Below, one piece after another: positions 3,001 through 20,100 of a DNA stretch of 20,531 nucleotides (positions within the stretch are counted from its first letter, which is position 1; each line of letters opens with the position of its first letter). The notes under the pieces are model-generated. The model saw nothing but the letters and a program-made list of their open reading frames with translations. It searched no databases and was not told where the DNA came from. The DNA is taken from IMG/VR virus record IMGVR_UViG_3300048549_001018, positions 1-20,531 of that record; one strand, given 5' to 3'. The stretch comes from a virus. The position numbers and the translations under genes were made by a program.

Positions 3001-4151
3001 TGTGAATTTACATTTCTAGACTTCGGAATGTCAATATATGCTGGAGATAGATTTCTAACACGATACCCCTTGACATATGCAGTACCCGGACTTAACTCCA
3101 AAGCATACATATCAGAACTTGCAACATTACCTTGTGCTGTTGTCACTCCATCTTCATATACACCATTATTATATCCGTTATTCACAGAATCTCTCATCGT
3201 GAACTGGAATTCGTCTAAAACGTAGTTACCAGATTCTTCATATGTTCTGAGAGCAATAGATTTCTCAAGTTCATCATAAGCACTACGATCTACCAGTTTC
3301 TCAATTTTATTACCATTGATTCTCAGTAGTTCAATAAAATCTTTATCTGCATCATCCGTTAGCAGTTTTTTAATCAGTTTTGTTGTGATTCTAAATCTAT
3401 GAGAACCAGGAGCAGCATAGTTAGATGTTCCAGCAGCGTTATCGTTAAGACTAAGGTCGTCTTCTGGTGTAACAATAGACTCAAGAATTTCAAGTCCAAC
3501 TCTGTACTTCGGATTGGTTCCATACTGATCCAACAGGATATACTGATATGGTACGTCTACAAAGAATCCTCTAATGAAATATACACCATCTTGGACATAT
3601 GCAACAGATCCAGTTTGAAGTGCATCAGTAGGAAGCAACTGAGCAAAGGGAGAACCAACTTCAATTAGAGTAGTTCCAAAAGTGATTTCATTATCAGTGA
3701 TTAATTGTTCGTTATTTCTAAAGGTATCTTGATTATTATCATCACCACCAGATTCAATATACTTAACATATAATGTAATATAACCCTTATCAGACTCTGT
3801 GGCAGATACACTAAATAAAACTTTTGCTTTTACACCAGATGTCAATCCAGTGATAATTTTATCATTTAACTGCGATCTATATTCTTCTACGTTGGCACCA
3901 AGAAACGATTCTTGCAACATAATTGCCTGAACACTAATGTCATATCCGATTTGACCCGGAATGACCATAGAACCATCCTTAAACAGGTGAGAACCCATAT
4001 TTTCAATCTGATTCTGCAGAATACTCTGCATCGTCGTTAGTTCTCTAGCCTGAATAGGATAACCAGGACGATAAAGCACTCGATAAAAGTTTTTATCCTT
4101 ATCGAAATCGTCGTAATAGGGGGTTACATTGAGATTGGTGTTCTGTGCCAT
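1..4151 (-). CDS. DUF4815-type virion structural (baseplate/fibre) protein, 3' end beyond the window
   Basis: Read directly on the minus strand from ATG at 4151-4149, the frame stays open to base 1, giving 1,383 complete codons and no stop; the C-terminus lies outside. The N-terminus starts MAQNTNLNVTPYYDDFD and continues with a PGYPIQARELTTMQSILQNQ segment and LFKDGSMVIPG. From memory this is the signature of the DUF4815 family of large T4-like cyanophage virion proteins. Two G-x-F/L-x2-GE beta modules lie at about 2560-2700 and 1415-1570. Near the left edge (about 309-375) is an NPFNVFAYIGRIDLSPSSDDW-like stretch, followed by a Gln/Thr-rich segment. The start overlaps the gp8 stop codon (TAATG), so translation is probably coupled to gp8. 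Known: the family is virion-associated. Inferred: by position it fills the T4 gp9/gp10 slot, linking the baseplate wedge to fibres. No enzymatic motif is recognised. Confidence 0.86.
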   Translation of the reverse strand, partial: MAQNTNLNVTPYYDDFDKDKNFYRVLYRPGYPIQARELTTMQSILQNQIENMGSHLFKDGSMVIPGQIGYDISVQAIMLQESFLGANVEEYRSQLNDKIITGLTSGVKAKVLFSVSATESDKGYITLYVKYIESGGDDNNQDTFRNNEQLITDNEITFGTTLIEVGSPFAQLLPTDALQTGSVAYVQDGVYFIRGFFVDVPYQYILLDQYGTNPKYRVGLEILESIVTPEDDLSLNDNAAGTSNYAAPGSHRFRITTKLIKKLLTDDADKDFIELLRINGNKIEKLVDRSAYDELEKSIALRTYEESGNYVLDEFQFTMRDSVNNGYNNGVYEDGVTTAQGNVASSDMYALELSPGTAYVKGYRVRNLSPAYIDIPKSRNVNSQQNAVVGFELGNYSHVSNIYGFPNVSGSTITNNYQVVELYDDFTATPGDANGNIIGYARVASCEFVATPDATFGNTDDRYKLNLFDVQMITVMRLGGAASLSAGSLIVGKSSGARAYIIDNVIASQNVSVYQIEGAFQAGEMLTVDGLNINTVDFMHQYLYSDVRSYISRDEATTNIEFTSDIVLDNISIVKGISFTYDATGGSETIVGLQSNFATDLRPGDRIFFNETQYVTVDSINPASLNTSNMNTVFDYANQSVNVTPPGGAESPAAGTYTALLRYRGKLTDVKDANLLTEMPRSFVKSISDESMVVRRTFDSQTVASNSISITLPEGESFSSITDANYTFTVMGSTNSTYPVGDQIPIDTINSGAFGYTSFTSADRTTLQIDNLTQITSVKVTATLSKDTTQRKTKSPAKMFVMKVNKTVENKAKQNYNLTYSNLYGTRIEDQKLSLGTIDAYGVHAVYESLDDDDPVIPSVTLVEPVFFATGEIVVGRTSKARARVVDFNSSTLKLTLIYLSGTLQLGETLDGKDSNGSDISAIINDAEGSVVLGSKVITDRYNLDNGQTGFMYGTSSLVRKNGVATPTRKIKVVLDFYNHSATGDYFSGQSYLETDYADVSFFGEKFLGDYLDFRPGSKKLYSGSGTVSSPAFVNQRSFDFKARSFPTAGTPPATILDIPKLNSVFRCDFNWYLSRIDKVFMLPTGEFQVITGKPAERPDIPDDIVDGMLLATLTHRPYGFEPHADTVIRKSTNKRYTMRDIGAIEKRLSNVEYYTSLNMLESDTFNTQITDSSGKNRFKNGFMVDDFTDHSKSAVNSQDYRVSIDLVTGECRPSHYTTNVPLVLNETLSTGYQKTGDIITLPYTEELIIEQTYASRLENVNPFNVFAYIGRIDLSPSSDDWVETEQAADNVISMEGDFQSTLSEMNADQNGFAPTVWGSWTNSGQPVQTTTTGPAFRSGRRNSLPGGWGRAIDQNTTITTSQNQTRTGIRTQVVARLDRESI

Positions 4152-5683
4152 TAGAATTCGATTACGATTTTAATATCTTCGATTTGGTCATTTGCACGAC
4201 CGATTGCTCTTCTATTATCTATGTAAATAATCTGACCATCATTTGACTTAATCTCAGGTTTTGCATAACCATTATTAAACTTCATACCCAAGTCATATTC
4301 AGTATTATTAATAGTTCTAGAAGAAGAGTTTGGTACAGCGGGAAAATTAACATCTGGTTGACCAGCGGCACCAGAAGTTGCGCCATTAATTACATTAGAA
4401 CCATCAAACTCATTAAGAGTACCAGTAACTTCTGGAAAAATACCATCAATAGCATTCTGATAATATTTCAGAACTTTAGTTGTGGCATTCCAAGAAACTA
4501 CGCGGGCACGAGCAGTAACGTTTACACCACCAACAACTCTACTTTGAGTGATAATTTCATCGGGAGTATAGTTACCTTGAAAAGAAGGTGGGAAAATAAC
4601 TGCCTTTGCAGCAGAAACAGTAAGGTCGGAAATCAATTCTTCAGTACCAAACTTTTTAGGATTGGTAATTAAACCAATACGACGGTAGTCATTATCAACG
4701 GGGAAGTCACCAGCACCTTCAGCATAAGACAACTTAGCATTGATCATGACACGGAAAGCACCCAATTCCATGATAGGATCATAACCATGACCACTTGGGG
4801 GTGGGATAATAACATCAACCTGACCACTAGTACCAGTACCAATACCAGTAATATTATCAACACTGATTTTACCGAAGGTATAACCAGTACCACCAGAAGT
4901 CACAGTAGCGGAAATAATTTTACCACCATCAACTACGATGGAAACACGACCACCAGTACCATCACCGTTAATTGCGACATTATCATATGTGCCATTATTG
5001 TAACCAGATCCAGCGGCAGTAATTACAACAGTGTCTACTTCGCCAGCAACAGCATTTGTTCTAACAGCGTCGTTCTCAAGAACGGGCATGTAATCATTAG
5101 AAAAGAATTTCAGAACAGAAGCAACAGGGATGGTGTAAAGATATTTCCAGCGATAACCATCAGAAGTAGTGATAATAGAAGTAGAAGTACCAGTCGGTTC
5201 AACTGTTGACGGTTTACCGTTCGGATCAGACGGAGAAGTGCCATTAAAAATACACTTATAAACTTGATACTGTGAGTTTACAACATAAAAGTCAGAATCA
5301 TATAACTTAGTAGCACCTGAAGAAGCAGTTTTACTAGGAGAATAGTCATGCCTATACATGTCATAGGTAAAACCTAGACCGCCCGTAGTTTGTTCGGGTG
5401 AAACCCAGTCAATCCTACGACAAACCTGAACTGTATCTGAAGCGAGAACTCGCTTCAAAGAGATCATGTCGTCGTAAGAACCGGAAAATTCTGAGAAGGA
5501 ATCTACCGCTTGTGGTGGAGCGTTTTCATTATCCCATGATTGGGGACGGCCGATGAAGATGTACAGACGATCTCTCGTTGTACCCGCTGCCGTATCGCTT
5601 TGTGTCGCGATAGGACCTTCAAGAGCTTTAATAAATTTCCTCGCAGAAAAAATTCTAAATTGATCAGTTAATAGAGCTGCCAT
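4151..5683 (-). CDS. 8: Baseplate wedge subunit gp8, enlarged by inserted beta modules
   Basis: 510 aa. Several blocks match T4 gp8 (334 aa) as recalled: RLYIFIGRPQSW near residue 39 (T4 TIFITFGRSEPW), VCRRIDW at 87-93 (T4 VIPRRDW), DGYRWKYLYTIP at 175-186 (T4 DGYVWEYLFEIP), NDYMPV near 197, RRIGLITNP at 334-342 (T4 RQISIITNP), and the C-terminus GQIIYIDNRRAIG...DQIEDIKIVIEF (T4 GEMIYMENRPPII...DQTEEINILFTF). In T4, gp8 is a wedge protein of the hexagonal baseplate that joins gp10 and gp7 to gp6. The extra length is concentrated at about residues 205-300, where Gly-rich G-x-GY repeats occur, and 355-445, where an RARVVSWNATT module occurs. The start at 5683 gives the conserved N-terminus and is preceded by AAGG. 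The stop overlaps the start of the DUF4815 gene by one base. Family call is very secure; the function of the insertions is unknown. Confidence 0.94.
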   Translation of the reverse strand: MAALLTDQFRIFSARKFIKALEGPIATQSDTAAGTTRDRLYIFIGRPQSWDNENAPPQAVDSFSEFSGSYDDMISLKRVLASDTVQVCRRIDWVSPEQTTGGLGFTYDMYRHDYSPSKTASSGATKLYDSDFYVVNSQYQVYKCIFNGTSPSDPNGKPSTVEPTGTSTSIITTSDGYRWKYLYTIPVASVLKFFSNDYMPVLENDAVRTNAVAGEVDTVVITAAGSGYNNGTYDNVAINGDGTGGRVSIVVDGGKIISATVTSGGTGYTFGKISVDNITGIGTGTSGQVDVIIPPPSGHGYDPIMELGAFRVMINAKLSYAEGAGDFPVDNDYRRIGLITNPKKFGTEELISDLTVSAAKAVIFPPSFQGNYTPDEIITQSRVVGGVNVTARARVVSWNATTKVLKYYQNAIDGIFPEVTGTLNEFDGSNVINGATSGAAGQPDVNFPAVPNSSSRTINNTEYDLGMKFNNGYAKPEIKSNDGQIIYIDNRRAIGRANDQIEDIKIVIEF

Positions 5684-5723: not shown

Positions 5724-8700
5724 TTACTCGGATCTAATTTCAGTATTGAATTCAAGACGCTTGATTCTGTAACTTGCGCCATTAGATCCGTTGAGCAATT
5801 CTCCCCCAAGAATTGCTTGAATCACTGCACCATTACCAGTAGAATCCCCAGAATCATTAGTAACCGTAATGGTTGGGCGCGAATTATATGTACCATCAGT
5901 ATACTGCTGATAACCATATCCGCCATTATTTACGGTGACCGATGCAATCTGATCACCTGCAGTTGTCATTACAGCAGTTGCTGTTGCTTGGATATCTCCT
6001 GCATTCTCAACAGAAATTGATGGGGTTGCAGAATAATCATTGCCGGGATTTTGAACAATAAAATCAATGATAGTTCCACCATCGGAGAATTTATATAAGA
6101 CGCCATTAACACCAACATTGAGATTGGTAGTGTCAAACGGAATAATTCCTCTAACAAGAAGAACTCCACTAGAAGGATTCCAACTAGTTACGGTTCCCCT
6201 TACACCAGAAACATCTCCAGTAACAACTTCTTCTGGGAAATAGTTTGATCCATTTCCACTAGCCAAATCCAGAACTACAGAAATAGTTACTTCATGAGGA
6301 ATACCTTCATTTAATCCGCCAGCCGCAGTAATGGTGGCATATCTAAACGGAATTGATGCATCTTTTACCTGATCACCAACTTGGAATAAGGTTGTGTTTT
6401 GTCCGCCAATGGTTTCTTCAATACCATATAATGAATTATAAAGACCACCATCAAGTCTAATCTGATTTTCATAATCAGTTCCAGTATTTACCAAATCAGC
6501 AATACCATCACCTACACCATCAAGTTCATCATCGTCTTCAAATTTACGATCCTCAAGAAATCCAATGGGTTCTGACAAGGTAATAATATTATCACCTACA
6601 GATTCCAATATAACATGGGGATCAAATCCTCCAGTAGCAGAAGTAGATACTCCAGCGTCAAACTGAACAATAGCATCTTCTGTAGTTGGAATACCAGCAT
6701 CAATGAATGCTAATTCATCAACCTCAAAAGTAACCAGAAGTTCTCTAGTAGTGGCATTCCAATCATATACTTTGGCAATTTTATTATTTTCATTTTCAAT
6801 TCTTCTAATTACCCTATCATTTACATTGAACTGATAAGTAGAATCTCCATCATTATTATTTTGATTAGCATCTAAGATAACCCTTTGATCATACTTAAAG
6901 TTTTTACCTCTAGTAACATTAAAGAATCTTTCTCTAGATTTGGACGTATATGAGACAGTTTCTCTACCAATAATCAAATTACCAGATCCAGGATATGCAT
7001 CTGTACTATCAACATATAATGTCGTATCACTACTACTTGCATCTCTCAGCAGTCCAGTCAAATAATTTGGCGTAGAATTATAAGATTGTCTATTACTGAT
7101 AGTTCTCTTTAAGTTAACAAGTTTAGTGAAGATGATATTAGGAGGATTGACATACCCTTCACCTGGATCTGTAACATCAATTCCAACAATCACACCCTGA
7201 TCAATTCTAGCGACTGCTTTAGCACCAATGCCCCCACCACCAGTGATTAAGATGTAAGGTGCTTGCTGATAAAATTCACCTTCATCAACTATATTAATAC
7301 TAGTAACCTTTCCGTTTGAATTAACTTGTGCCCTACCTCTAGCACCTTGTCCACCACCACCACCTTCAAAAATAAGAGTTGGGGGGGTTGCAAACTCCCG
7401 ACCCTCCTGTAAAAGAGTTAGACCGGTAATTGTTTGTACTGTCGGAACTGCTGTTGCACCAGATCCCTCACCACCAATAATTTTTGCTTTTGCTGGACCA
7501 AAATACCCATCTCCACTTCTAACCATTTTGACATATCCAACAGATCCATCTGGATTTAAGACAACTTCACCCTTTGCACCGTCAGGAAACACATTTGTAA
7601 TTGCGGGTAATTCTCCATCGGAATGATACGGTTCTCCATAAAATTCAGGACCAATTACATACGGATAAACCGGATTATCGCTAGAATCAGTAGACATAAA
7701 ATATGCATAAGTTCCGTTTGGATAATCTGGAGTGACTGCAAATCTACCGTTATGTCTATCTAAAGTACCTAATCCATCCTCAAAAATATAATCTTGAACA
7801 AAAGATCCCAAAGGATATCCATCCTGAACACATCTAAATCCATATTCAGGATTAGTATAGGATATGACATATAAAAGTCTGGGAGAATTTATCTTTGGAG
7901 TAAATTCAAGTCTTTTATTAGTCGCTCCAGCAAATCCTTGAACATATGCAAGATAGGTAGTCTCAACATTATCGATAAAATATCTAATTCCATCTTGGAA
8001 TAAGTATTGGGTATTTCCGATATCGGGAGGATTGCCAATATGCCATCCATCTTCCTGTAAAGCAAACAAGACGGGACTTGCAAGAGCATCTTGATTAAAA
8101 ATGTAAGTCTTTCCCCTGTCCAGTTGCAAGAATGGAGGAACGGATCCATCTATTGCAAACTTACCATTTGATACTGTAACAGTGTAGTTTACTGTCCCTG
8201 TTGTAGTTATAGAAGCTCTTTGACCATCAACTTCATTCGTATTTTTTAATCTATATGAGGATGTTTCTCTGCGAACTTGACCGGTAGAATCATATCCCCA
8301 TTGACCATAAATCGGATATCCATCATAAGATACACCAAGAATTCTAGAGTGTCCGGTTACATGCCTAGAGTAATCAAAACTAGATCCATCGAGATAATAA
8401 TCCGTAATGTAATAATTATTCGGTAAAGGTTCGTCATCAATCTCAGGACTGAGGATCATATATCCCTCATCCCCATCATATCCAGACATGTGTCTGTGAT
8501 ATCCGCAATAATAATAAATTATATTAGTCTCATCAGCGTTCATAATAAACACCGGCCGGAACTCATTCTCATAGTCCGCTGCTGGTGCTCCAGACGCTCC
8601 TGTCGAATCGTAGTATAAAGTACCAGGAGTTGGGTTTAAAGCACCGTCAGGGGTCGTACTGAAGCGCATAGGATGCCCTTGAGTATGATGTGCTGATGGT

Positions 8701-9884
8701 TGATTAGATGAGTCTGACTGATCCCAAATAATTTGATAATTTCTCTGAACTCTGATGTCTGTTGGTGCCAGATAATAAGTATTTGGGATGAAATTTCCAA
8801 ACTCATGAGAATCTGGTCCAAATTCAATATAAAACAATCCGTTAGGGAAAGTAATCGGATCTTGTCTGACCGTAGCACTGAAACCTGTAGATCCCAATAA
8901 TTGATCTCCGTCAGCAAATTCTCCAACTACAGATCTTAAATATAACCTATCAATAACACCATTAACACGAATAATTTTAGCGATTTGTCCCCTAACAACT
9001 CCTTCGCCAACTCTCTCTACTAATCTACCTTCTTCTATTGGATTTAAAGTTTCATCAATATTATTGATATGAACAAGAATATTATCATGCTCAGTTTTTA
9101 CTGTCCATGTGAATTGCTGTTTAAATCCGTTTTCAAAAACACCTCCAGCATCATCAAATTGATTAATTAATTTGTTAGTATGATAATAGTATTGATTATT
9201 TCTAACTACAGCATCATAAGTGTCAGTATTCAGAAGAAAATCGTGAGGGATGATATCAAAATTAAATGCAGCAGGTGGTCCTCCAACAGAACCCCAATCG
9301 GGTGTATGTAAAAGAACACCATTGGACATAACACCAATAGGTTTATTTAATTCAATAGGTCTATCTCCACTGTAAGGAACATCCTTACCTCCTCTATAAA
9401 CAAATTGTCTACTAAAGGTCTGATCTACTAATGGTCCTCCACCCGGTTCTCTTTCCGTTCCGTAATTTACCGGTTTAGGATGATTGTCGGAAGTAATTGT
9501 TAATCTATCAGTAACATCACCATTATTGATTAAAAATACACCGGAAGTTGCAGAGTTTGGATTTGACTGCCAAATTCTATTAATATTGAAAGTAGATACT
9601 ACGTTTGGTGTATCCTGTTCTGGAATAATTGAAAGTCTTAATGGGTCATACCCTTTACCAGATTCTAATACCCTAACATGAGTGATTCTTCCAGAAACAT
9701 CGTCAATGATGGGATATAAAAGTGACTCTGCAACGGGTGTACCACAACCAGTCACCGTAAGTCTGGGAGGATCAGAACTATCGTATTCTGAACCCCCATT
9801 GATTACTTTTACTGCTCTAACGCCGAACTCATCATTGAAAATCGGTTCAATGACTGCACCAGATCCAGGAACTGTTCTTGCCAT
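5724..9884 (-). CDS. 1,386-aa modular virion protein with cupredoxin/YHYH region and Gly-rich beta repeats
   Basis: Not recognised as a T4 protein. Order of parts: residues 1-100, G-x-GY-type beta repeats (INGGSEY, LESGKGY); 285-340, a G-x-F-x2-GD module (VVGEFADGDQLLG); 352-480, cupredoxin-like with GHPMRF (His404) and YYYCGYHRHMSG (Cys460, His463, Met466); 511-527, GHSRILGVSYDGYPIYG, which matches the second half of YHYH-domain proteins; 565-685, a second cupredoxin-like copy without ligands; 780-920, four Gly-rich repeats (e.g. DPGEGYVNPPNIIF); 950-1000, a fibre-like SSSDTTLYVDSTDAY / LIIGRETVSY segment; two WN-type beta modules near 1037 and 1228; and G-x-GY repeats again at 1270-1365. 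No signal peptide or membrane segment. The ATG at 9884 follows the previous gene after tandem in-frame TAA TAA and AAA, with no clear Shine-Dalgarno, so coupled translation is likely. Its place directly before gp8 suggests a baseplate or fibre component. Confidence 0.88.
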   Translation of the reverse strand: MARTVPGSGAVIEPIFNDEFGVRAVKVINGGSEYDSSDPPRLTVTGCGTPVAESLLYPIIDDVSGRITHVRVLESGKGYDPLRLSIIPEQDTPNVVSTFNINRIWQSNPNSATSGVFLINNGDVTDRLTITSDNHPKPVNYGTEREPGGGPLVDQTFSRQFVYRGGKDVPYSGDRPIELNKPIGVMSNGVLLHTPDWGSVGGPPAAFNFDIIPHDFLLNTDTYDAVVRNNQYYYHTNKLINQFDDAGGVFENGFKQQFTWTVKTEHDNILVHINNIDETLNPIEEGRLVERVGEGVVRGQIAKIIRVNGVIDRLYLRSVVGEFADGDQLLGSTGFSATVRQDPITFPNGLFYIEFGPDSHEFGNFIPNTYYLAPTDIRVQRNYQIIWDQSDSSNQPSAHHTQGHPMRFSTTPDGALNPTPGTLYYDSTGASGAPAADYENEFRPVFIMNADETNIIYYYCGYHRHMSGYDGDEGYMILSPEIDDEPLPNNYYITDYYLDGSSFDYSRHVTGHSRILGVSYDGYPIYGQWGYDSTGQVRRETSSYRLKNTNEVDGQRASITTTGTVNYTVTVSNGKFAIDGSVPPFLQLDRGKTYIFNQDALASPVLFALQEDGWHIGNPPDIGNTQYLFQDGIRYFIDNVETTYLAYVQGFAGATNKRLEFTPKINSPRLLYVISYTNPEYGFRCVQDGYPLGSFVQDYIFEDGLGTLDRHNGRFAVTPDYPNGTYAYFMSTDSSDNPVYPYVIGPEFYGEPYHSDGELPAITNVFPDGAKGEVVLNPDGSVGYVKMVRSGDGYFGPAKAKIIGGEGSGATAVPTVQTITGLTLLQEGREFATPPTLIFEGGGGGQGARGRAQVNSNGKVTSINIVDEGEFYQQAPYILITGGGGIGAKAVARIDQGVIVGIDVTDPGEGYVNPPNIIFTKLVNLKRTISNRQSYNSTPNYLTGLLRDASSSDTTLYVDSTDAYPGSGNLIIGRETVSYTSKSRERFFNVTRGKNFKYDQRVILDANQNNNDGDSTYQFNVNDRVIRRIENENNKIAKVYDWNATTRELLVTFEVDELAFIDAGIPTTEDAIVQFDAGVSTSATGGFDPHVILESVGDNIITLSEPIGFLEDRKFEDDDELDGVGDGIADLVNTGTDYENQIRLDGGLYNSLYGIEETIGGQNTTLFQVGDQVKDASIPFRYATITAAGGLNEGIPHEVTISVVLDLASGNGSNYFPEEVVTGDVSGVRGTVTSWNPSSGVLLVRGIIPFDTTNLNVGVNGVLYKFSDGGTIIDFIVQNPGNDYSATPSISVENAGDIQATATAVMTTAGDQIASVTVNNGGYGYQQYTDGTYNSRPTITVTNDSGDSTGNGAVIQAILGGELLNGSNGASYRIKRLEFNTEIRSE
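7124..7545 (-). repeat. Gly-rich beta repeats (residues ~780-920 of the 1,386-aa protein)
   Basis: Four degenerate units of about 35 aa follow the plan hydrophobic strand, x-G-x-G-Y/F, x2-P-x-I/V-x-I/F, Gly run, G-A-x-A-x-A/V. Examples are RSGDGYFGPAKAKIIGG, EGREFATPPTLIF, DEGEFYQQAPYILITGG and DPGEGYVNPPNIIF. The same unit recurs at the C-terminus of this protein, in gp8 (residues ~213-300) and near the C-terminus of the giant protein (TAGGSGYTSRPNVRI at ~11340). It is probably a stacked beta structure. Confidence 0.7.
7830..8192 (-). other. Second cupredoxin-like copy that has lost all four ligand positions (residues ~565-685)
   Basis: Aligned by eye with the copy at residues 352-479 and with the C-terminus of the 406-aa protein. 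LDRGKTYIFNQD corresponds to the strand before the first ligand. ASPVLFALQEDG matches GHPMRFSTTPDG with Ser603 at the His position and the next Pro kept. RLLYVISYTNPEYG matches IIYYYCGYHRHMSG with Ile674, Thr677 and Glu680 at the Cys, His and Met positions. The fold is probably kept while metal binding is lost. Confidence 0.45.
8304..8354 (-). other. YHYH-family signature (residues 511-527)
   Basis: GHSRILGVSYDGYPIYG, followed by QWGY, fits the conserved His-Ser-x3-G-x3-DG-x-P-x-YG core that I associate with the YHYH domain. Proteins of that family are found in bacteria and as parts of cyanophage virion proteins. The upstream YHRH at 462-465 would be the variant of the name-giving tetrad. Confidence 0.65.
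8448..8831 (-). other. Cupredoxin-like domain with candidate type-1 copper ligands (residues ~352-479)
   Basis: The region has a conserved His followed by Pro (GHPMRF, His404), then after about 55 residues a Tyr-rich strand ending in Cys460-x2-His463-x2-Met466-x-Gly. This order (His, then Cys-His-Met in one C-terminal loop) is that of type-1 blue-copper proteins, and the C-x2-H-x2-M spacing is that of amicyanin. The same stretch can also be read as YHRH, a variant of the YHYH motif, because a YHYH-family GVSYDGYPIYG segment follows about 50 residues later. Metal binding is inferred, not shown. Confidence 0.55.
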
Positions 9885-9890
9885 TTTTTA

Positions 9891-11111
9891 TTAACTTACA
9901 ACGGTGATTGTGCCATTCATTAAAGTGTGAAGCGTACACTGATAATATAAGGTAGTAGGAGCATCCATTGGAACAGTCCAATATAAAACATTAGAACCTG
10001 TTCCAGTTTGACCATCCGTATATGGGGTTCCAGTCAGACCGCTAGTCGATTGAATTCTAAATGGATGAGCACCACCATTAACGGAATTATCAAATGCATA
10101 TGTCATTCCACGCATAACATAAAGTGTGGGGTCGGAAGCTGTACCTGTAAATCCAGGTCCACTAAAAGTATAAGATGAAATACCATCAGCATTCAGTTCC
10201 CACCATGTCATTGGACTGCGAGTAACTACCCAATTAGCGCCACTCCAATACAAAGAGTCGCCCTGAGTAATACCAGAAACATCAGTATCTGTAAGTGCCG
10301 CTAAAGTAGTAGTTAATGTTCCTGTAAATGCAACAGTTACTGTGTCACCAGCAATTGTAGTTGAGATATTCGTACCACCTGCAATAGTAAGGGCATCCGT
10401 TTCGCTAGATGCTGTTGTAGTGCCCGTATCAGCATTTATAGTAGCAAAACTAGTGATACTAGATACACCAGCATTATCATCGCCAGGAACCCAATTGGTG
10501 CCATCCCATTTTAATACTTGGTTATTTGTGGGAGGAGTTGTTGCAATATCAATGTCGGTAAGATCACCAACACTAGTATATTGAGTTAACAAACCAACCC
10601 TAGTATCACCAACACCACCTGCTGTGATGTTCATATTTACATAAGGTGTGTCGTCTCCGTCAACAGTAAAGAAATAACCAGGATAGGCTGCTGCAGATGG
10701 AGCAACACCTAATGTCGTATATTCATTTTTATATTTTACTTTAGTTGGTAAATCAATATCACCAGTTGCGCCATCAAAAGTATTCGTAATACTACCATTA
10801 CTAATTGTTACGTCACCAGTGCCATTTGGGGCAATTGTTATATTTCCATCACTAGAAGAAATAATGGAGTTTCCATTAACATCCAATGCTGCGGTAAGTG
10901 CAGTATAGTCAGATGCAATAAAAGAAGTACCAGTATACTTCAATACCTGACCAACACCAGCGTTAGTTACATCAATTTGAATGTCTGCTCCATTACCTAA
11001 AGCAGCATAGATTTCAGTAAAGTTGTCATTGATTTTATCGCCACCAGCACGGAGGGTATCCCCCGTGTTGTCGTTTGGCGCAGAACCAATATTAAGTGCT
11101 TGCTTGGACAT
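9891..11111 (-). CDS. 406-aa fibre-like virion protein with C-terminal cupredoxin-like domain
   Basis: The N-terminus (LNIGSAPNDNTGDTLRAGG followed by KINDNFTEIYAAL) is a motif seen at the start of many phage tail-fibre and virion-decoration proteins, probably a mounting domain. Three fibre-type repeats follow: NAGVGQVLKYTGTSF (about 50-64), a DLTDID...NQVLKWDGTNWVPG stretch (183-210) and TDTDVSG...GDSLYWSGANWV (274-297), with Ser/Thr/Gly-rich beta sequence between them. Residues 300-406 form a cupredoxin-like domain with GGAHPFRIQSTSG (His349) and LYYQCTLHTLMNG (Cys392, His395, Met398), ending three beta residues later. The start is preceded by an exact late-promoter core but no obvious Shine-Dalgarno; the next gene begins 6 nt after the stop. 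Role inferred: a small fibre, whisker or decoration protein. No T4 counterpart is recognised. Confidence 0.87.
   Translation of the reverse strand: MSKQALNIGSAPNDNTGDTLRAGGDKINDNFTEIYAALGNGADIQIDVTNAGVGQVLKYTGTSFIASDYTALTAALDVNGNSIISSSDGNITIAPNGTGDVTISNGSITNTFDGATGDIDLPTKVKYKNEYTTLGVAPSAAAYPGYFFTVDGDDTPYVNMNITAGGVGDTRVGLLTQYTSVGDLTDIDIATTPPTNNQVLKWDGTNWVPGDDNAGVSSITSFATINADTGTTTASSETDALTIAGGTNISTTIAGDTVTVAFTGTLTTTLAALTDTDVSGITQGDSLYWSGANWVVTRSPMTWWELNADGISSYTFSGPGFTGTASDPTLYVMRGMTYAFDNSVNGGAHPFRIQSTSGLTGTPYTDGQTGTGSNVLYWTVPMDAPTTLYYQCTLHTLMNGTITVVS
9894..10214 (-). other. C-terminal cupredoxin-like domain with complete amicyanin-type ligand set (residues ~300-406)
   Basis: His349 (AHPFR) is followed 43 residues later by Cys392-T-L-His395-T-L-Met398-N-G-T-I-T-V-V. 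As recalled, amicyanin ends with Tyr-x-x-Cys-x2-His-x2-Met-x-Gly and a final beta strand, with the other His about 40 residues upstream, so order, spacing and distance to the C-terminus all agree. The strand GMTYAFDNS before His349 matches the equivalent strand in the two copies of the neighbouring protein. Copper binding is inferred. Confidence 0.6.
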
Positions 11112-11130: not shown

Positions 11131-11138
11131 TATTTATA
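11131..11138 (-). promoter_or_regulatory. T4-type late promoter core TATAAATA
   Basis: The minus-strand octamer TATAAATA matches the T4 late promoter core exactly. It lies 20 nt before the ATG of the 406-aa gene and overlaps the TAA stop of the giant gene (11136-11134). In T4 this element is read by RNA polymerase with gp55 and the gp45 sliding clamp; start about 6-7 nt downstream would leave a leader of roughly 13 nt. It would give the 406-aa gene and those downstream their own late transcription. Confidence 0.65.
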
Positions 11139-14100
11139 GGATCTCTGGATCAATGATTTCTTCACCATACAGACTTAAGTCAGGTGCTGTCCAATCATCA
11201 GGAACTGATGATTCAACATTAACCGAAGGATCCAGATATCCAGTTCCAGCGGATGAAACAACTACACCACCAACACCAACCAATGCTTTAATTTGAGCAT
11301 CAAATCCGCTGATAGAGTCAATTCTAACATTTGGTCTGCTAGTATATCCAGAACCTCCAGCAGTAACAGAAACTTTATCGATAGTTCCGGAAGTTAGAAC
11401 CGCTGATGCTTGAGCACCTTTACCGAAAGTAGATCCAAGATAATCGAATGTGATCAAAGAATTGGAAGATTCAATAACAGCAACTTCACGATCTTCAGTC
11501 TCACCTTCGATTCTAATATTATCGCCAGGTTCGATAGGAGGTATAATATCTGCTGCTTCAACGTCCTGATCAGATCCAACATAAGAGAATGCTACAAATG
11601 TAGATCCGAATCTAGGAATTTCAGAGAAGATAATTCTAGAACCAACAATCTCGAAACCAACACCTGGTTCTTGAATAACACCGTTAAGAGAAACAATAAT
11701 ATTATTTTCGGGTTTGATCACAGAGGACTGAACACCTTCAGTTAGAGTGAGTGAGTAGAAAGTACCCTCACGTTTGAGGTTGAAGGATTGTCTTAAGGAA
11801 TCAAAGTCGAATGAGATATCATCCAATTGTCTAAGTTTACCAACATAGAATCCAGTGAAGGACGATCCAATCTCAGGTGCCTCTTGGAATTGAATTGAAT
11901 CTGAGAATGCGGTATATGCATTTGTTGCTCCTGGCGGTTGTAAAATACCATTAACAAAGATCAACATATGACCTGCGGGATCTGGGAAGTAAGGATCACC
12001 ATTGTTCGTAGTGAGTTTGAAGGCGGTTTGTGTACCATCAAATCCTCTGAAGAATCTTCTAACGCGAGCGCGTAATTCTTTACGAACAATAACTGCTGCC
12101 TTGTAATCATCAACAGAAATAATCGTATCTCTATTGCTAAATGTTCCAACAACATCTGTGAGATATAATCTCTTATACAAACCAGAAGTTTTGATGTCAC
12201 TTACCAGAGCAGCACCAGCACCAGCAATGTCAACTTTTGCGCTAATAGTAGCAAAACCAACCGGAGTATCACCATCAGAATAATCACCAATATAATCACC
12301 ATTTGAGAACGATCCAGTAACCATAGAAACGTAAATGTAATTGTTGTCAAGATCTAAATCGGTGATAATACCGTAGTTATTTGCATCTTTCAGAACACCT
12401 TGAATTACGTTATAAAGATAGTTACCTACTTGGAAATTATTCTTACTGTCAATCACAGAGATGAGTAATCTACTATGTCCATCAGAGGCAATTCTATCAC
12501 CAACTTGAACATCAAGACCTGCAAATTTGTTAACCTCAAGGTATTCACTAATACTTTGAGGATAAACTACAGAGGTAACCTCAAACTGACCCGTGAGAGA
12601 TTCAGTATCTACAGTTAATTTACCGCCAGTATTTGTCAATACAGCAGATTCTGCGATACGCATTTCCTCAACATTTGCAGTTGCACCAGAAGTGAACCCT
12701 TTGAATTCAATTCCTTGATCAAATTGCCCTTGTCTACCGATGACTTGTAATCTATCTTCGATAGCACCGATTTCAGCGGTACTGGAATTGTTTGCTCCAG
12801 TGATAATATTCAATACAGCGAATGTTCCAGCAGTAACGGCAACATCAAAGTAAGTGTTATTTTCATCCGAATACTTAGCATAGATTGTACCGGAAGCACC
12901 TCCAGAAGTGACAACTTCACCCAATTCAAGTGCCTCACCCGTTACCTCACCATTAATTCTAAATCTTTGATAAACTTTAACAATCTTCGCTTCATTCTCT
13001 CGAATGTTTGCAATCTCACCATATGCTCCACTAGCAAGACCAATAATATTATCGGCAGGTTGAACACGACCGGTAACACCAATAGGGATGTTACGAGTTC
13101 CATATGTCTTAGTGGGAACTACGATGCCACTACGAGTATCAATTGTGGTGATAAAGGAATCATTTAGTAATTGATTTCTAATGATATCAAAGTTACGACG
13201 GATAACACTCATCCAACTATCAGTGTCATAAAGAGACTGCAAACCAGTATCTGTATATGTAAGGAATCCAGCAAGAGGTGAAGGTGTAGTTAGAGTTTGA
13301 TCCAATGCCTGTTCATAGTATGCTTCAATTGCATCGATAATGTAGTTCTTAATGTTGAAATCATTGTCCGCATAGAAGGTTTCGCCGGATACAGATACAT
13401 AAGGATCCAAACCGCCTTTAGCAAGTTTCCATCCCCAATATGCTTGTGATTGTGGACTAACTCCAGCAAATTGAATCGCACCAGCATTATTTTTCTGATA
13501 AACTTCAGTCCTAAGTAATCCAATACCAAAGGAGAATGTAAGAGTAATATATGCTCTATACCAACCATTACCATAAGGAATAGATCCATATGCTTCAACG
13601 GTTGCTCCAGTGTCAGCAAAGACGCTACCAAATGTACCATCAGAAAGATCCAAATCAAACTTAACTTCTTTTGCTGTAACACCAGGATCAAGAGTAACTT
13701 GGAATCTACACTTGTCTAAAGGTGTACCGGAAGGAGTAACATCTTTAATGAAAGTAGAGAATGTATAGGTTTGCGTTTCTTGCACAGAACCCGTATCAAA
13801 TGTCTCGTTAGAGGAGTCAAATTTATTACCTTCAGCATCAAATGTAGTGAAAGAAGTTAAAACATAATCTCTAGAGACTAAATGGTATGCAGTTGTACCA
13901 TCGGGTGCAACCGAATCTGCGGTTAAGGTGTCATCAGGAGCGAGGTAGGCATCAGATGCTACTGATGCCATTGCAGTTTTAGTGAAACCAGATACACTCA
14001 AATCTTCAGGATATGTGAAGAGATTATTCAATACAACTTGACCTTGAACGTTGGATTGAATTAATCTTGCACTCTCAATCGTTTCTACATTACCAATGGT

Positions 14101-17100
14101 CTTGTAGTAGTTGAATGCAGTAGAAATAGCACCAGAAGTAGATTTGATTGTTCCGTAATTAGAACCCTGCTGAATTCTATATCCAGCGGTTAAACTGGAA
14201 CCCCTGATTATCTGAACAACTAATTTGCTGGTTTTGGGATACCATTCAAGAACTTCAACCTCAAGGGTGCTAGTGCGACCAGTATCAAGTCCAAGATTAT
14301 TAGATCCGCTATATGCGGGTTGGCCAACAGTAAAGGTTCCAGTAATATTTTCAAGTTCTACAGTTCTAGCAGTAACATAACTGCTGCTATCTGTAGTTAC
14401 CATATCATGAATGGTGTTGTTAAGCATCTCCGTAAGGAAATCATTGTAAGTCCAATAAGAAGAACCCCACTGAGCATTAACTTCATTCGTAATCTCTTCT
14501 CTATAATAGTTCGCATTGAAGAGAAGCATTCTTCCCGCTGCGCGAGAAGCAGTATCACCTGGTGTAAGAGTGTCGATAATAAGATCTATAAGATTATCGA
14601 ACGCATTGATAACATCCGCACAATCATCATCACTGTAAGTTGAGTTACCGGACTCATCAGTAATTGTTAGATCAGTATATGGAGTTACTGGTGTGTATTG
14701 TGCTCTATATTGATCTCCCGAAGCACCATCTCCAATTCCAACAAGTAAGTTGCGAATCGCTTTCTTACCAAGGAATCTAACCTGTTGATAGGCATACATG
14801 GCAGGAAGAATTTGATCTTCAAACTGTTTTAAACCATTAGAAGAGGTGATGTAGTATTCAATCGCTTTAACTGTATTGGAGTTACCTCCAGTAAGTAAGT
14901 CAGCAATTACACTATCAATAATATCTTTAATATCATCCTTACAATTTTCTCTACCTACAGAAATACCGCCCGGATAAGAGAATGCATTGTAAGATGCCAC
15001 ACCCAACTGATAAGCAAACGCTGCATCCAAAAGAAGTGTTGCTTCATCCGCAATAAATTCCTTATTGAAGAGAAGCAAATCACCAGCATCTCGGTAACGA
15101 TCCCCAGTGGGAGCGAGAGAGATATTTGCAAGATCGATCAGAGCATCAATTGCACTCGTTACATTTGCACAATTTCCAGGATCATTTGTGATTCCCCAAT
15201 CACCAACAATAACAGCATCAGTGTTAGTGGAATCGATATCACCTGTTACTGCTTGTTTAGCGTAGAATGCGAGTCTTTCGTGTGCGTAGCAACCCTCTAC
15301 CAACTGAAGTCTTACATGTAAGATTTCATCATTAGCACCAAAATAAAGACCTAAACCAGTAAGAAGATTAAGATTTCCACCTTCTTCAATGTCATTAGCG
15401 ACAGCATCCAAGATAAGACCTAAGTCGGTCTTACAACGTAAAGTACCAGCTCCACTACCATCTTGGTTTCTAGGCATACTCAAACCAAGATGAGGATACC
15501 TGCTGATCATATCAACAGCTGCCTTGTCTACAATTGCCTTTCTATTGAGACGAATTAGATTTGCAGCATCTCTAAATCGATATTGAGCATTTACATTAAA
15601 CTTATTGGCATATACAATGTCATCATTATTAAAGACATCAGTCAATTCAATAGGAACTTCACTAAACGAATCTACATAAGATCCTAAGAATTCGTAGACT
15701 GGGAACAGTTTAGTTACGGTGCCAAGATAATCTACCGGAGATGGAAGATTAGCATTAGTTAAGGTATCAACAACAATATCCATGAGATTTTGGATTGTCT
15801 GCTTAACATCAGCGCAATCTGCTGATGTGTAATCCAATACAGTGACTGCATTTGTTGCTGCACTGACAAACACATGAGTATATTGACGATCAGCAGGAGA
15901 TACGCCCACATTTACTGTGAAGGTATTTGTAGAAACTGCCGTTACAGAAAGAACTCTTCTATATGCAGGGTCAGTTGAACGAGGATAAGTGTGCTGTGAC
16001 GCATTATCATCTTGACTGCAAGTAAATGTAAAGGAGTCATCAGCAAAACTTACCTTACTAGAAGTGCTTAAGTTATGACCAGCAGAGGTGATTACCATTT
16101 CTCCAGTAACAGGATCATATGTTGCTCCACTAGGAGTTAACTGCGTCAGACTTCCATAGTTATTGGAATCATAGATTGTAGTATCCGTATACTGAGTTAA
16201 ACTATGATCACCTTGAATTGTAATTAATTCGTTATTAATAATCTTATTGACAAGTTCAACGTGTTTATTGAGAACCCAAAGTGTTTGTGGAATCTCAGTT
16301 TCAACATGATTTAATTGTACAGGATTTGCTTCCCTGTTTACATATAGAGCAGATGCATCCCAAAGATGAGTATTAGAACCATTTCTAAGATCATCGACCA
16401 GTGCATCTGTAAGATCAAGAACATCATCTTCACAGTTCACCTTCTGATCAGCGACTACACCGCCAGCAATAGCAGACTTGAATGTGTGTACATATGCACC
16501 ACCAGTAATAACAGCATTTGCAACATTACTTACCCATGCATAGGTATATTGCTGACCTGAAGGAGAAGCACCGACATTGATCGTAACCGCACCGGTTTGC
16601 TTGATTAAAGCACCAGTTGTAGCAGACACGAAATTGTGAGTTGTTGTGTCAGTAGATGTACCAATATCTAAAGTAAATGTGTTGCCATCAACAACCGTAA
16701 CTGGTTGCCATAATCCCCAAATGGGATCAGATTGTCTGGGATATGTGTGATTTGTAGCATTAGAATCATAGGCACATGTGAATGTTAAGGATTCACTTGC
16801 GATTTGAATGTGATCTCCTGTGCTGAGATTATGTCCATTAGAAGTAATGGTCAGGATTCCGGTGGTGGGAACATAAGTCGCACCAGTAATATCCGCAGTA
16901 GTAGTTCCTACCGAAGTAACATTCAATGTTGTATTGTATGCAGGATCAGTGGAACGAGGATACTGATGCTGAGAACCATTAGCGTCTTGACTGCAAGTGA
17001 ATGTAAATCCAAGATTAGCAAGTCTTAATTTAGTTCCAGCATTAATTGTATGATTTGGAATGGTCATTACAAAATCACCAGTTGCAGAATCATACGTTGC

Positions 17101-20100
17101 ACCAGTAGGTGTCCAGTAAACAAACGGAGATGTACCTACATTAACTGTAATTGACGTAGAAGATGCATCAACAACAGGCAGTGCATTAAACTTAGTAGCA
17201 GGATCTCTTGGACGGGGATATGTTACCTCAGTCTGATTATTATCACTAGAACATGTAAATGTCAATGCATTAGGATTGATCTTAATGCGATCTCTTTCTA
17301 CTGTAATAGCACCAGTTTCAGCGGAAACAAAATTGTGAGTGTATTGCTGACCTGAAGGAGATGCACTAACATTAATTACAAATTCATGGTCATTTGGCAC
17401 ACTAGTAATAGTAATCCAATCTCCAGCAGCAGGATCTGTAGGACGAGGATATTCATGTTCTGATCCATTGCTATCTTGATCACAAGTAAATGTTATAGAG
17501 TTGACTTTAATATTAACTCTTTGACCAACACTCAATCCATGATTAGTTACTGCAATAGTCATATCACCAGTTGCAGCATCATATGTTGCATTTCTAGGTG
17601 TAATCTTACCACCGTTAGTCAGTGTATTTGCACTAACTGCCATTGTTAACAATCCAGTAGTTGCATCATACGTTGCATCTGTTGGTGTGAATCTATCGCC
17701 AGGAATGACAAGATTTGGATATCTCTGTCTCATCAGATAAACGGATTCTTTAGCAATAAGCGATCTGTTTTCGGAGATTAATCTGGAAGCATCAATATAT
17801 CTGTGTGTCTTTCCAACAAATCCGGATGTAGGAACACCAACATTAACTGTAAGTGTAGTGCCTGTAACCGCAGAAATAGTAAGAGTAGAACCATATGCAG
17901 GATCGGTTAATCTAGGATATGTGTGATTGGTTGCATGATTATCTTTAGAGCAAGTAAATGTAAGAGCATTTGCTGCAATGACAACTGTATTTGAAGTTGT
18001 ATAACTATGAGAACCAATAGTCAGAACAAGATCACCCGTCACTTGGTTATAAGTTGCTGCGGTAACTTGTTCGTTAGTACCATTTACAGCAATAGCATCC
18101 GCAGAAGATTCAACAAAGATGTGCTTACCACCTGTGTTTCTTTGAGTTTCTCTCAGAGCATCATTACAGAAATCATCACCTTCAGTCCAAGATGCTGTAC
18201 CAGACCAATCATCAGTGTGAACCTGTCCATCAACACCATCAAAGTGTAAAAGAAGTTTAGTATCAGCATCGCCTTGGAATAATCCAGTAGGAGCAGTGAA
18301 ATCGGCAGTATAACGAGCAACCGAAGATACTCTCAATTCATCCAAATGACCAGAGAACGTGTTAGCACCTGCATAATCACCAGCAAATTTAATTGGTTTG
18401 GTAGTTCCAAAATCACTACCATCAGAATATGTGCTACCCTCTTGAACACCGTTTAAGAATAACTTAGTGCTGTTCCCACTTCTAGAAAGAGCAACATGAT
18501 ACCAAGTGGAGTGTCCAAGATTTGTAGCGCCAGTGATAACAACACTACCATTATTGTAATACTTCAAATTCATACCATCAAGATACAAATAAGGAGCAAG
18601 TTCTGTAGCAGTAGATCTAAAATCAACCAATGCTTTAGTACCAGAGATATTACCAGCACGCATCCAGAATTCAATAGTGAAGTTTCCAGTGCCGAATCCA
18701 AACTCAGTAGAGGTTGGAATACTTAAGAAGTCGGAAGTGCCATTAGCGGCACCTACATTGACTGTAATAGTAGTAGCACTAGTAGCAGAAATTGCAATAG
18801 TTGAACCAGAAGCAGGATCTGTGGAACGGGGATATGGGTGATTTGATCCGTGAGCATCAGCGCCACATGTAAATACTAATCCATTATCAGCAATTGTAAT
18901 TGTTTCTGAGGTCGAAAGACCATGAGCACCAATCTCAAGAACCAATACACCAGTTACTGGATCATATGTTGTTCCAGTTGCTGCAGTATATGTGACATTA
19001 GTATTAGAGGTAATAGCATCTGCAACACCACTAACGAAAGTATGTTGATGATATGCACGCGCTAAGAGTAGTGAAGATAGACCATATCTCTTTGTGGACG
19101 TATCAAGTTGTGCTTCTTCATTAAAAGTAGAAACATGATAATCCTCTCCAGTATATTGAGATCTTGCTACTTTACCCAAGTAAACAGTTTTTCTTGCTTG
19201 ATTATAACCAATAACTTCTGCCTTAGATGTAGTATTTCTAATAACCTGACCGGCAGTGAAGAATCCAGATCCAAGAGTATTTTTCTCGTGAGTAAGTTTT
19301 CTAACGGAAGTATTTTCATCGGTAATAAAATCACCAACAGTATTTGAAAGTTCGACTCTCTTATTTCTAATTTTTTCACCTTCTTGGAAAGTTCCATTAA
19401 CATTAACAACATCAATTACAATATTGTTGATAATTTCATTTGCTGGGAAGTTGGAATCAAACGGAGTCGTATTATCATCAAAATCAACAATACTAATTTG
19501 AGATGCAGAAATATCATCAAGAACAACGTTTTGATAGTTAATACTAGTAATTCTGTTGAACAGAAGACCGGAGAAACTTGCTCCAGGTGAAATATTAACC
19601 TGACTAATAAACTGTTGAGTTGCTGGATCTTGATAAGGACTTGTAGCAGTAACCGTAGCAACAACTCCAGATTTAGCACCAATAATAATGTCATTTAATG
19701 CAATATCAAACAATCCTGGTGTAGATTGATATGTTCCAGCGGTTTTACTAAGAATCAGATTATTACCAATCTCAATATCAGTACCATATAAAGGAGCAGC
19801 CTGTAAGTGGGAAACAGCGGCAGTTCCAAGTTGTGCTCTACTTACCTGAAGATTAATAATTCCAGATTCACTGCCAGCAGTAACTGCACTAATGGTCATA
19901 ATTTCAGACGCAATCTGAATGTTATCACTAACAGCAAACTGAGAAGCATCAGAAGTCAGAACTTCAAATGATGTTGTGGAAGTACCGATGCCATATCTTA
20001 AAGTACCCAAAGGTTCTTGCTGACCACCTTCAAGATTAATTTCCTCAACCTTTGCAGTATCACCATCCAAATTGGAAATGGTTTCATTGAAAGCAAATAA

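Follow-up and report, generated by a model that had tools for sequence, protein, structure and literature searches.

A conserved cupredoxin-type candidate copper site in a predicted baseplate wedge protein with cyanophage gene order is distinct from the YHYH domain around it

What makes this analysis interesting is above all a candidate copper site that is conserved in the tail of a virus. A 1386-aa protein annotated as a baseplate wedge subunit contains a cupredoxin domain (aa 340-485, 8430-8867) that, from conservation, AlphaFold2 and profile matches, appears to have a complete type-1 ligand set: His404, Cys460, His463 and Met466. These residues are kept without exception in its homologues, the domain is related to copper cupredoxins, and it is nested in a separate YHYH domain that holds a second cupredoxin fold; loss of the site in one of the two copies accompanies its presence in the other. 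The first-pass annotation had noticed the four residues in this one sequence. That observation was right, and the conservation is greater than one sequence would lead one to expect.

The wedge protein and its ligand set

The window, by which we mean the whole stretch of 20,531 nucleotides that was analysed, is a 20.5-kb IMG/VR virus record whose gene order is that of cyanophage syn9 gp101-104. The four genes of this order lie on the minus strand, as do all window features located below. From the high end, gene order gives a very large structural protein of 3108 aa (11134-20460), a 406-aa gp9/gp10-like connector (9891-11111) with T4_gp9_10_N at its N-terminus, the 1386-aa wedge protein (5724-9884) and gp8 (4151-5683). 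A further large open reading frame, of which the window has the start, runs off the low end and, because of the order in other cyanophages, should be VrlC. The 3108-aa protein has a concanavalin/laminin-G domain at aa 573-716 and repeated 'tltfTCsqDxxxxxHxYPRxtDP' units. PHROG 708, 'baseplate wedge subunit', covers aa 1-1386 of the wedge protein with 2202 bits, and synteny makes the protein the orthologue of syn9 gp103; family profile and gene neighbourhood together annotate it as a gp7-like baseplate wedge subunit. Its likeness to T4 gp7, the baseplate wedge initiator, and to the gp7-like proteins of cyanophages consists of the gene order beside gp9/gp10-like and gp8 genes and of PHROG 708, and is a likeness to T4 gp7 without shown sequence similarity. 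According to one study, VrlC takes the place of gp7 in these phages (PMC7029224).

The candidate ligands are at the places where they had first been reported, within aa 352-479 (8448-8831). His404 (8673-8675) is the upstream ligand, and the loop Cys460-x2-His463-x2-Met466 (8487-8507) supplies the other three (Cys460, 8505-8507; His463, 8496-8498; Met466, 8487-8489); sequence, an alignment of 89 domains and a profile of 13 domains all place them so. The loop does not look like a product of chance. C..H..M.G is expected 3e-5 times in the 1386-aa protein and 1e-5 times in the 406-aa protein, and it arose in none of 20,000 shuffles of either. All four residues are kept in 89 of 89 distinct homologous domains from IMG/VR, so that the order His...Cys-x2-4-His-x2-4-Met of type-1 copper cupredoxins is present and invariant throughout, and they are likewise invariant in 58 distinct homologues of aa 330-771. 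Their neighbours vary. The column of Tyr462 has Y in 30 and N in 33 of the 89 domains (residues seen: Y, N, F and H), and that of His465 has Y in 63 and H in 18 (Y, H, D and N). A second candidate copper site, as the annotation had called it, is thus borne out as a conserved site that appears to be of the cupredoxin type.

The adjacent connector carries its own C-terminal cupredoxin domain (9894-10205), in which none of the 74 distinct homologues of the 406-aa protein departs from His349, Cys392, His395 and Met398. As had been claimed, the wedge loop has the C-x2-H-x2-M-x-G spacing of Cys392, His395, Met398 and Gly400. The two proteins had also been described as otherwise unlike, which holds in part: their domains do align, profile to profile, with the four ligands in register, although the alignment is weak. 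A ligand set of the type-1 kind is therefore conserved in two adjacent putative baseplate proteins.

AlphaFold2 predicts the first domain of the wedge protein with a pLDDT of 85 and a pTM of 0.81 (five models, 66 sequences). In the predicted model, His404 stands immediately before strand 67-70, and Cys460, His463 and Met466 lie in the loop joining the last two strands, 117-121 and 135-139, a placement that is the cupredoxin arrangement as modelled. The matches of this model to solved structures are weak. The N-domain of copper nitrite reductase (Z 4.9) is followed closely by immunoglobulin domains, and the purple cupredoxin of Nitrosopumilus (4.2) and rusticyanin (3.9) are mixed with immunoglobulin domains too. 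Foldseek with the isolated domain gave no significant match among solved structures, none falling below 0.02; among viral models its best matches were a YHYH protein of ACG-2014g and fibre proteins of cyanophages, the same motif being present in some of these.

The sequence route to the copper cupredoxins is stronger than the comparison of models, and it is an indirect one. No Pfam or NCBIfam cupredoxin model scored above cut-off on the first domain, the NCBIfam search gave no match for it, and the window protein sequence, searched directly, matched no solved structure. A profile of the close family only found antibody chance matches and nothing else among solved structures, and Pfam run on each member of that family returned one multicopper-oxidase match, at 0.016, amid chance matches. 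The window domain does resemble one domain of the MED4-213 protein CPMG_00018 (38% over 80 residues, E 4e-4, ligands in register), and another domain of CPMG_00018 matches plastocyanin unaided (E 9e-4). We combined 13 divergent cyanophage domains, 15-45% identical to the first domain, into one profile, whose only invariant columns are His, Tyr-Tyr, Cys, His and Met; agreement at Cys, His and Met is partly built in for three of the 13, because these were gathered by a C..H..M search, of which the upstream His was not part. Among solved structures this profile finds copper nitrite reductase 9cck (E 2.7e-4) and fern plastocyanin 1kdi (E 3.2e-4), as well as other plastocyanins, amicyanins, azurin, pseudoazurin and copper nitrite reductases, with the ligands aligned for plastocyanin and amicyanin. 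When its two most plastocyanin-like members are removed, copper nitrite reductase is still first (E 0.0036). Since the window domain unaided finds none of these proteins, its link to them is transitive, and by this link we take the domain to be homologous to the copper cupredoxins. It shares with the type-1 domains of plastocyanin, amicyanin and copper nitrite reductase (PF00127) the order His + Cys-x2-His-x2-Met, a Tyr-rich strand before the Cys and ligands in the last loop. It differs from them in having Pro, not Asn, after the His (HP) and in being embedded in a phage baseplate protein.

The YHYH domain and its two insertions

The first-pass annotation had read residues 462-465, YHRH, together with GVSYDGYPIYG (~517-527) as one YHYH-family motif, and had suggested that one structural element may serve as both the YHYH region and the cupredoxin loop. 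The letters are there, but 50 residues and a domain boundary separate the two strings. Pfam YHYH (PF14240, a model of 193 positions) scores 77.7 bits on the wedge protein against a cut-off of 25, with two stretches above the cut-off. One aligns to aa 508-569 (profile 88-151), not to 460-466, and the other to aa ~689-733 (profile 139-183). From these alignments and those to orthologues given below, the YHYH domain appears to extend over ~aa 105-755 and to be interrupted twice by cupredoxin modules. Its N-terminal part, placed by the canonical YHYH profile and the S-ShM2 alignment, covers ~aa 108-253 (9126-9563), its middle part, GHSRILGVSYDGYPIYG, aa 503-570 (8175-8378), and its C-terminal part aa 689-755 (7620-7820). 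The C-terminal part is 61% identical, over 64 columns, to cellular YHYH proteins, which we took from 80 bacterial loci. In a predicted model of 419 aa, the YHYH parts have a pLDDT below 50.

Orthologues of the wedge protein locate the true motif. A profile made from the canonical YHYH domains aligns to S-ShM2_097, ACG-2014d_75 and their relatives over 267 columns (E 1.5e-50), and the alignment pairs GRYHYH with GRYYYT of these S-ShM2-type orthologues. They in turn align to window aa 1-250 and 458-1386 with 45-48% identity and miss the ~240-residue block between; window aa 1-250 correspond to S-ShM2 1-248. The window counterpart of the YHYH motif is therefore YYYH at aa 232-235 (9180-9191), a degenerate form that is poorly kept in the column make-up of the 89 sequences. 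We rejected SRHVTGH (aa 508-512) as a displaced YHYH motif, since the paralogue has FRHPDGH there plus a separate upstream RYHYH.

Cellular YHYH proteins have the signature CxGHP, then YHHH or YHYH, then HSPIxGxAxDGYPIYG, and phage paralogues of 573-587 aa carry the complete motif (DACGGHPEQNGRYHYH). In the wedge protein the whole domain is recognisable, with SNGV, HSxxxGxxxDGYPIYG and NGRFxVTPEYPNGTYAYF in common with PF14240 members from Bacteroidota, Planctomycetota and the phage paralogues. It differs from them in its two interruptions and in missing CxGHP (both the Cys and GHP are absent) and most of the motif histidines, the position of the motif being variable. YHYH domains have been proposed to be zinc-dependent, tail-associated hydrolases (PMC7824862); this is probably inapplicable to the wedge copy because most motif histidines are missing. 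The wedge domain looks diverged and is probably non-catalytic. The 573-587-aa paralogues, unlike it, keep the motif histidines. Two of them, S-ShM2_094 (L250, 466-2187) and ACG-2014d_73 (L251, 511-2274), have a complete canonical YHYH domain and are encoded a few genes upstream of the wedge protein, where the window gene order is without a counterpart; S-ShM2_094 is annotated as gp7 despite carrying a YHYH domain.

Little of this is compatible with YHRH being the YHYH motif and YHYH proteins being copper proteins. Both settings do contain C-G-x-H, as CGYH in the wedge protein and as the CGGH that precedes YHYH in the 573-aa paralogue, and by eye the YHYH segment follows at a similar distance. 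However, the shared C-G-x-H is not homologous: module-free orthologues show the YHYH part continuing from aa 253 to ~500, and in them the complete YHYH domain exists with the whole N-terminal cupredoxin module absent, which refutes the identity of the two. Tyr462 and His465 vary while Cys, His and Met are kept in the 89 domains, the predicted covariation of Cys and Met with the YHYH histidines is absent, and there are YHYH proteins without any C-x2-H-x2-M (S-CAM7, Bellamy, cellular proteins and the 573-587-aa phage paralogues). The profile of cellular YHYH proteins matches that of the cupredoxins with a probability of 0.2%, and a YHYH profile had no match among solved structures. In ten relatives, moreover, the cupredoxin is separated from the YHYH continuation by inserted domains of 150-260 aa (an extra domain of ~150 aa in nine, and 262 aa in L078). 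We regard this reading as very improbable.

The first insertion, a module of ~240 aa (~aa 254-495, 8400-9125), holds the first cupredoxin; its place is after the YHYH motif and before DGYPIYG, and it is a clean gap in the S-ShM2 and ACG-2014d orthologues. The second (aa 571-688, 7821-8174), recognised by structure match, homology and alignment, is a nested cupredoxin fold whose ligands have been lost. Auracyanin A matches its model with Z 8.6 across 97 residues, and P-HM2 gp7 and locus L080 have intact domains homologous to it. Ser675, Asn678 and Tyr681 stand in the window where S-ShM2 has Cys, His and Met, and the upstream His is also gone. S-ShM2 and ACG-2014d show the opposite arrangement, with insertion one absent and the nested site intact (LYYFCYNHANM and FSYFCRYHGLM).

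Among 106 distinct proteins with the nested domain, the site is N-terminal only in 87, nested only in 15 and present in both places in three (L292-L294); the remaining one (L061) is cut by a contig end, and no complete protein among the 106 is without either site. The loss of one site thus accompanies the presence of the other, although the sequences are related, so that 87 and 15 stand for a few lineage events and not for 102 independent ones. Because the nested site is lost here and kept where module one is absent, selection seems to require that each subunit have one metal site or more, in whichever copy.

Spread of the domain among tail proteins

Tail proteins of cyanopodoviruses and of other myoviruses also carry the cupredoxin domain. 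In annotated phage records, nearly all of them from cyanophages, the wedge-type domain occurs in 220 and the connector type in 335. The connector-type domain occurs twice in the proximal tail fibre protein of P-SSM2 and opens fibre-like proteins of the cyanopodoviruses P-GSP1 (L246, PRQG_00035) and P-SCSP2 (L247, P-SCSP2_00033), which means that it has crossed between myoviruses and podoviruses. In locus L080 an intact cupredoxin (about 4459-4890) is inserted into the first cupredoxin, in the loop just before the counterpart of His404. The proteins L292-L294 (2750-2782 aa) have four C-x2-H-x2-M sites, two in tandem, one before the YHYH domain and one inside it.

Outside the cyanophages, a relative of the S-ShM2 YHYH/cupredoxin region occurs in the Actinomycetia phage DSL-LC01 (OQ999401.1, 103869-104585). 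A wedge gene is also present on a contig of 22,908 bases from a Rhodopirellula MAG (L087, NZVD01000020.1); this contig is exactly as long as the viral contig of L003, so it is probably a mis-binned cyanophage contig.

Metal and role

We think it probable that the cupredoxin module of the wedge protein is mobile, binds one copper of a type-1-like kind in each subunit and has a structural or attachment role. The ligands would be those of a cupredoxin with mononuclear type-1 (blue) copper, and their spacing in the loop is short, as in amicyanin. The domain would bind one copper ion tightly, probably taking it up after lysis. A peripheral baseplate domain that faces the host would have its C-terminal loop locked by the bound metal and, so stabilised, could take part in attachment or in the docking of fibres; iron has a comparable stabilising effect where it is bound in the tips of some tail fibres. 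The cytoplasm, where virions are assembled, holds little free copper, and this counts against copper.

It also favours another metal. The site might hold zinc in the virion, or Cu(I) in a structural capacity only, as a clip that stabilises the fold. Type-1 sites can take zinc in heterologous expression, and structural metals are frequent in baseplates and fibre tips. A report on an Alteromonas phage proposes that its tail fibre has six potential iron-binding domains (PMC11705849). In the wedge domain, however, Met and Cys are strictly kept, a combination that copper sites typically have and zinc sites seldom do, and we consider a clip of this kind unlikely.

Less likely still is a redox-active type-1 site through which attachment is triggered, the baseplate either sensing or exchanging electrons at the surface of the host or engaging a receptor for copper uptake or one that is a copper protein. 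The ligand set, complete and redox-competent, is found in two adjacent baseplate proteins and also in host-contact proteins of unrelated phages. A phage particle is, on the other hand, without an obvious electron chain, the argument here is one from sequence, and we know of no electron partner or receptor for a phage cupredoxin site. We hold such a role to be possible, and less likely than a structural or attachment role.

To the same low degree we would credit a relic cupredoxin whose residues are kept for folding only, with no metal. Many cupredoxin-fold adhesion domains have lost their copper. The nested copy, with all four ligands lost, is still predicted to fold as a cupredoxin, so the fold does not need metal. 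That loss, however, is what relaxed constraint looks like, and the intact copies show none of it in 89 and 74 distinct sequences; where the first site is missing, moreover, the intact site is in the other copy.

To return to the copper module, the virus particle may carry bound copper. A more far-reaching proposal is that marine cyanophage virions are metalloparticles whose baseplates each bear an array of type-1 copper centres, one in each gp7-like wedge subunit and each gp9/gp10-like connector, the sites being selected, movable between two nested positions in the YHYH domain and engaged in attachment or its triggering. We offer this combination tentatively, as falling somewhat short of an even chance. 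The copper reading is directly testable, because the cultured phages syn9 and S-ShM2 carry complementary arrangements.

The domain map of these proteins is hereby corrected, with YHYH distinct from the cupredoxin loop. As YHYH is a separate domain, interrupted twice, the copper motif is no guide to its function. Electron carriers and enzymes are the roles in which copper cupredoxins are known. The literature searched, outside subscription journals, yielded no account of cupredoxins in phage baseplates. If our reading is true, copper cupredoxins would gain a new setting, with a conserved set of copper ligands in the baseplate of abundant marine viruses, and the attachment of these phages would be tied to a scarce and toxic trace metal.
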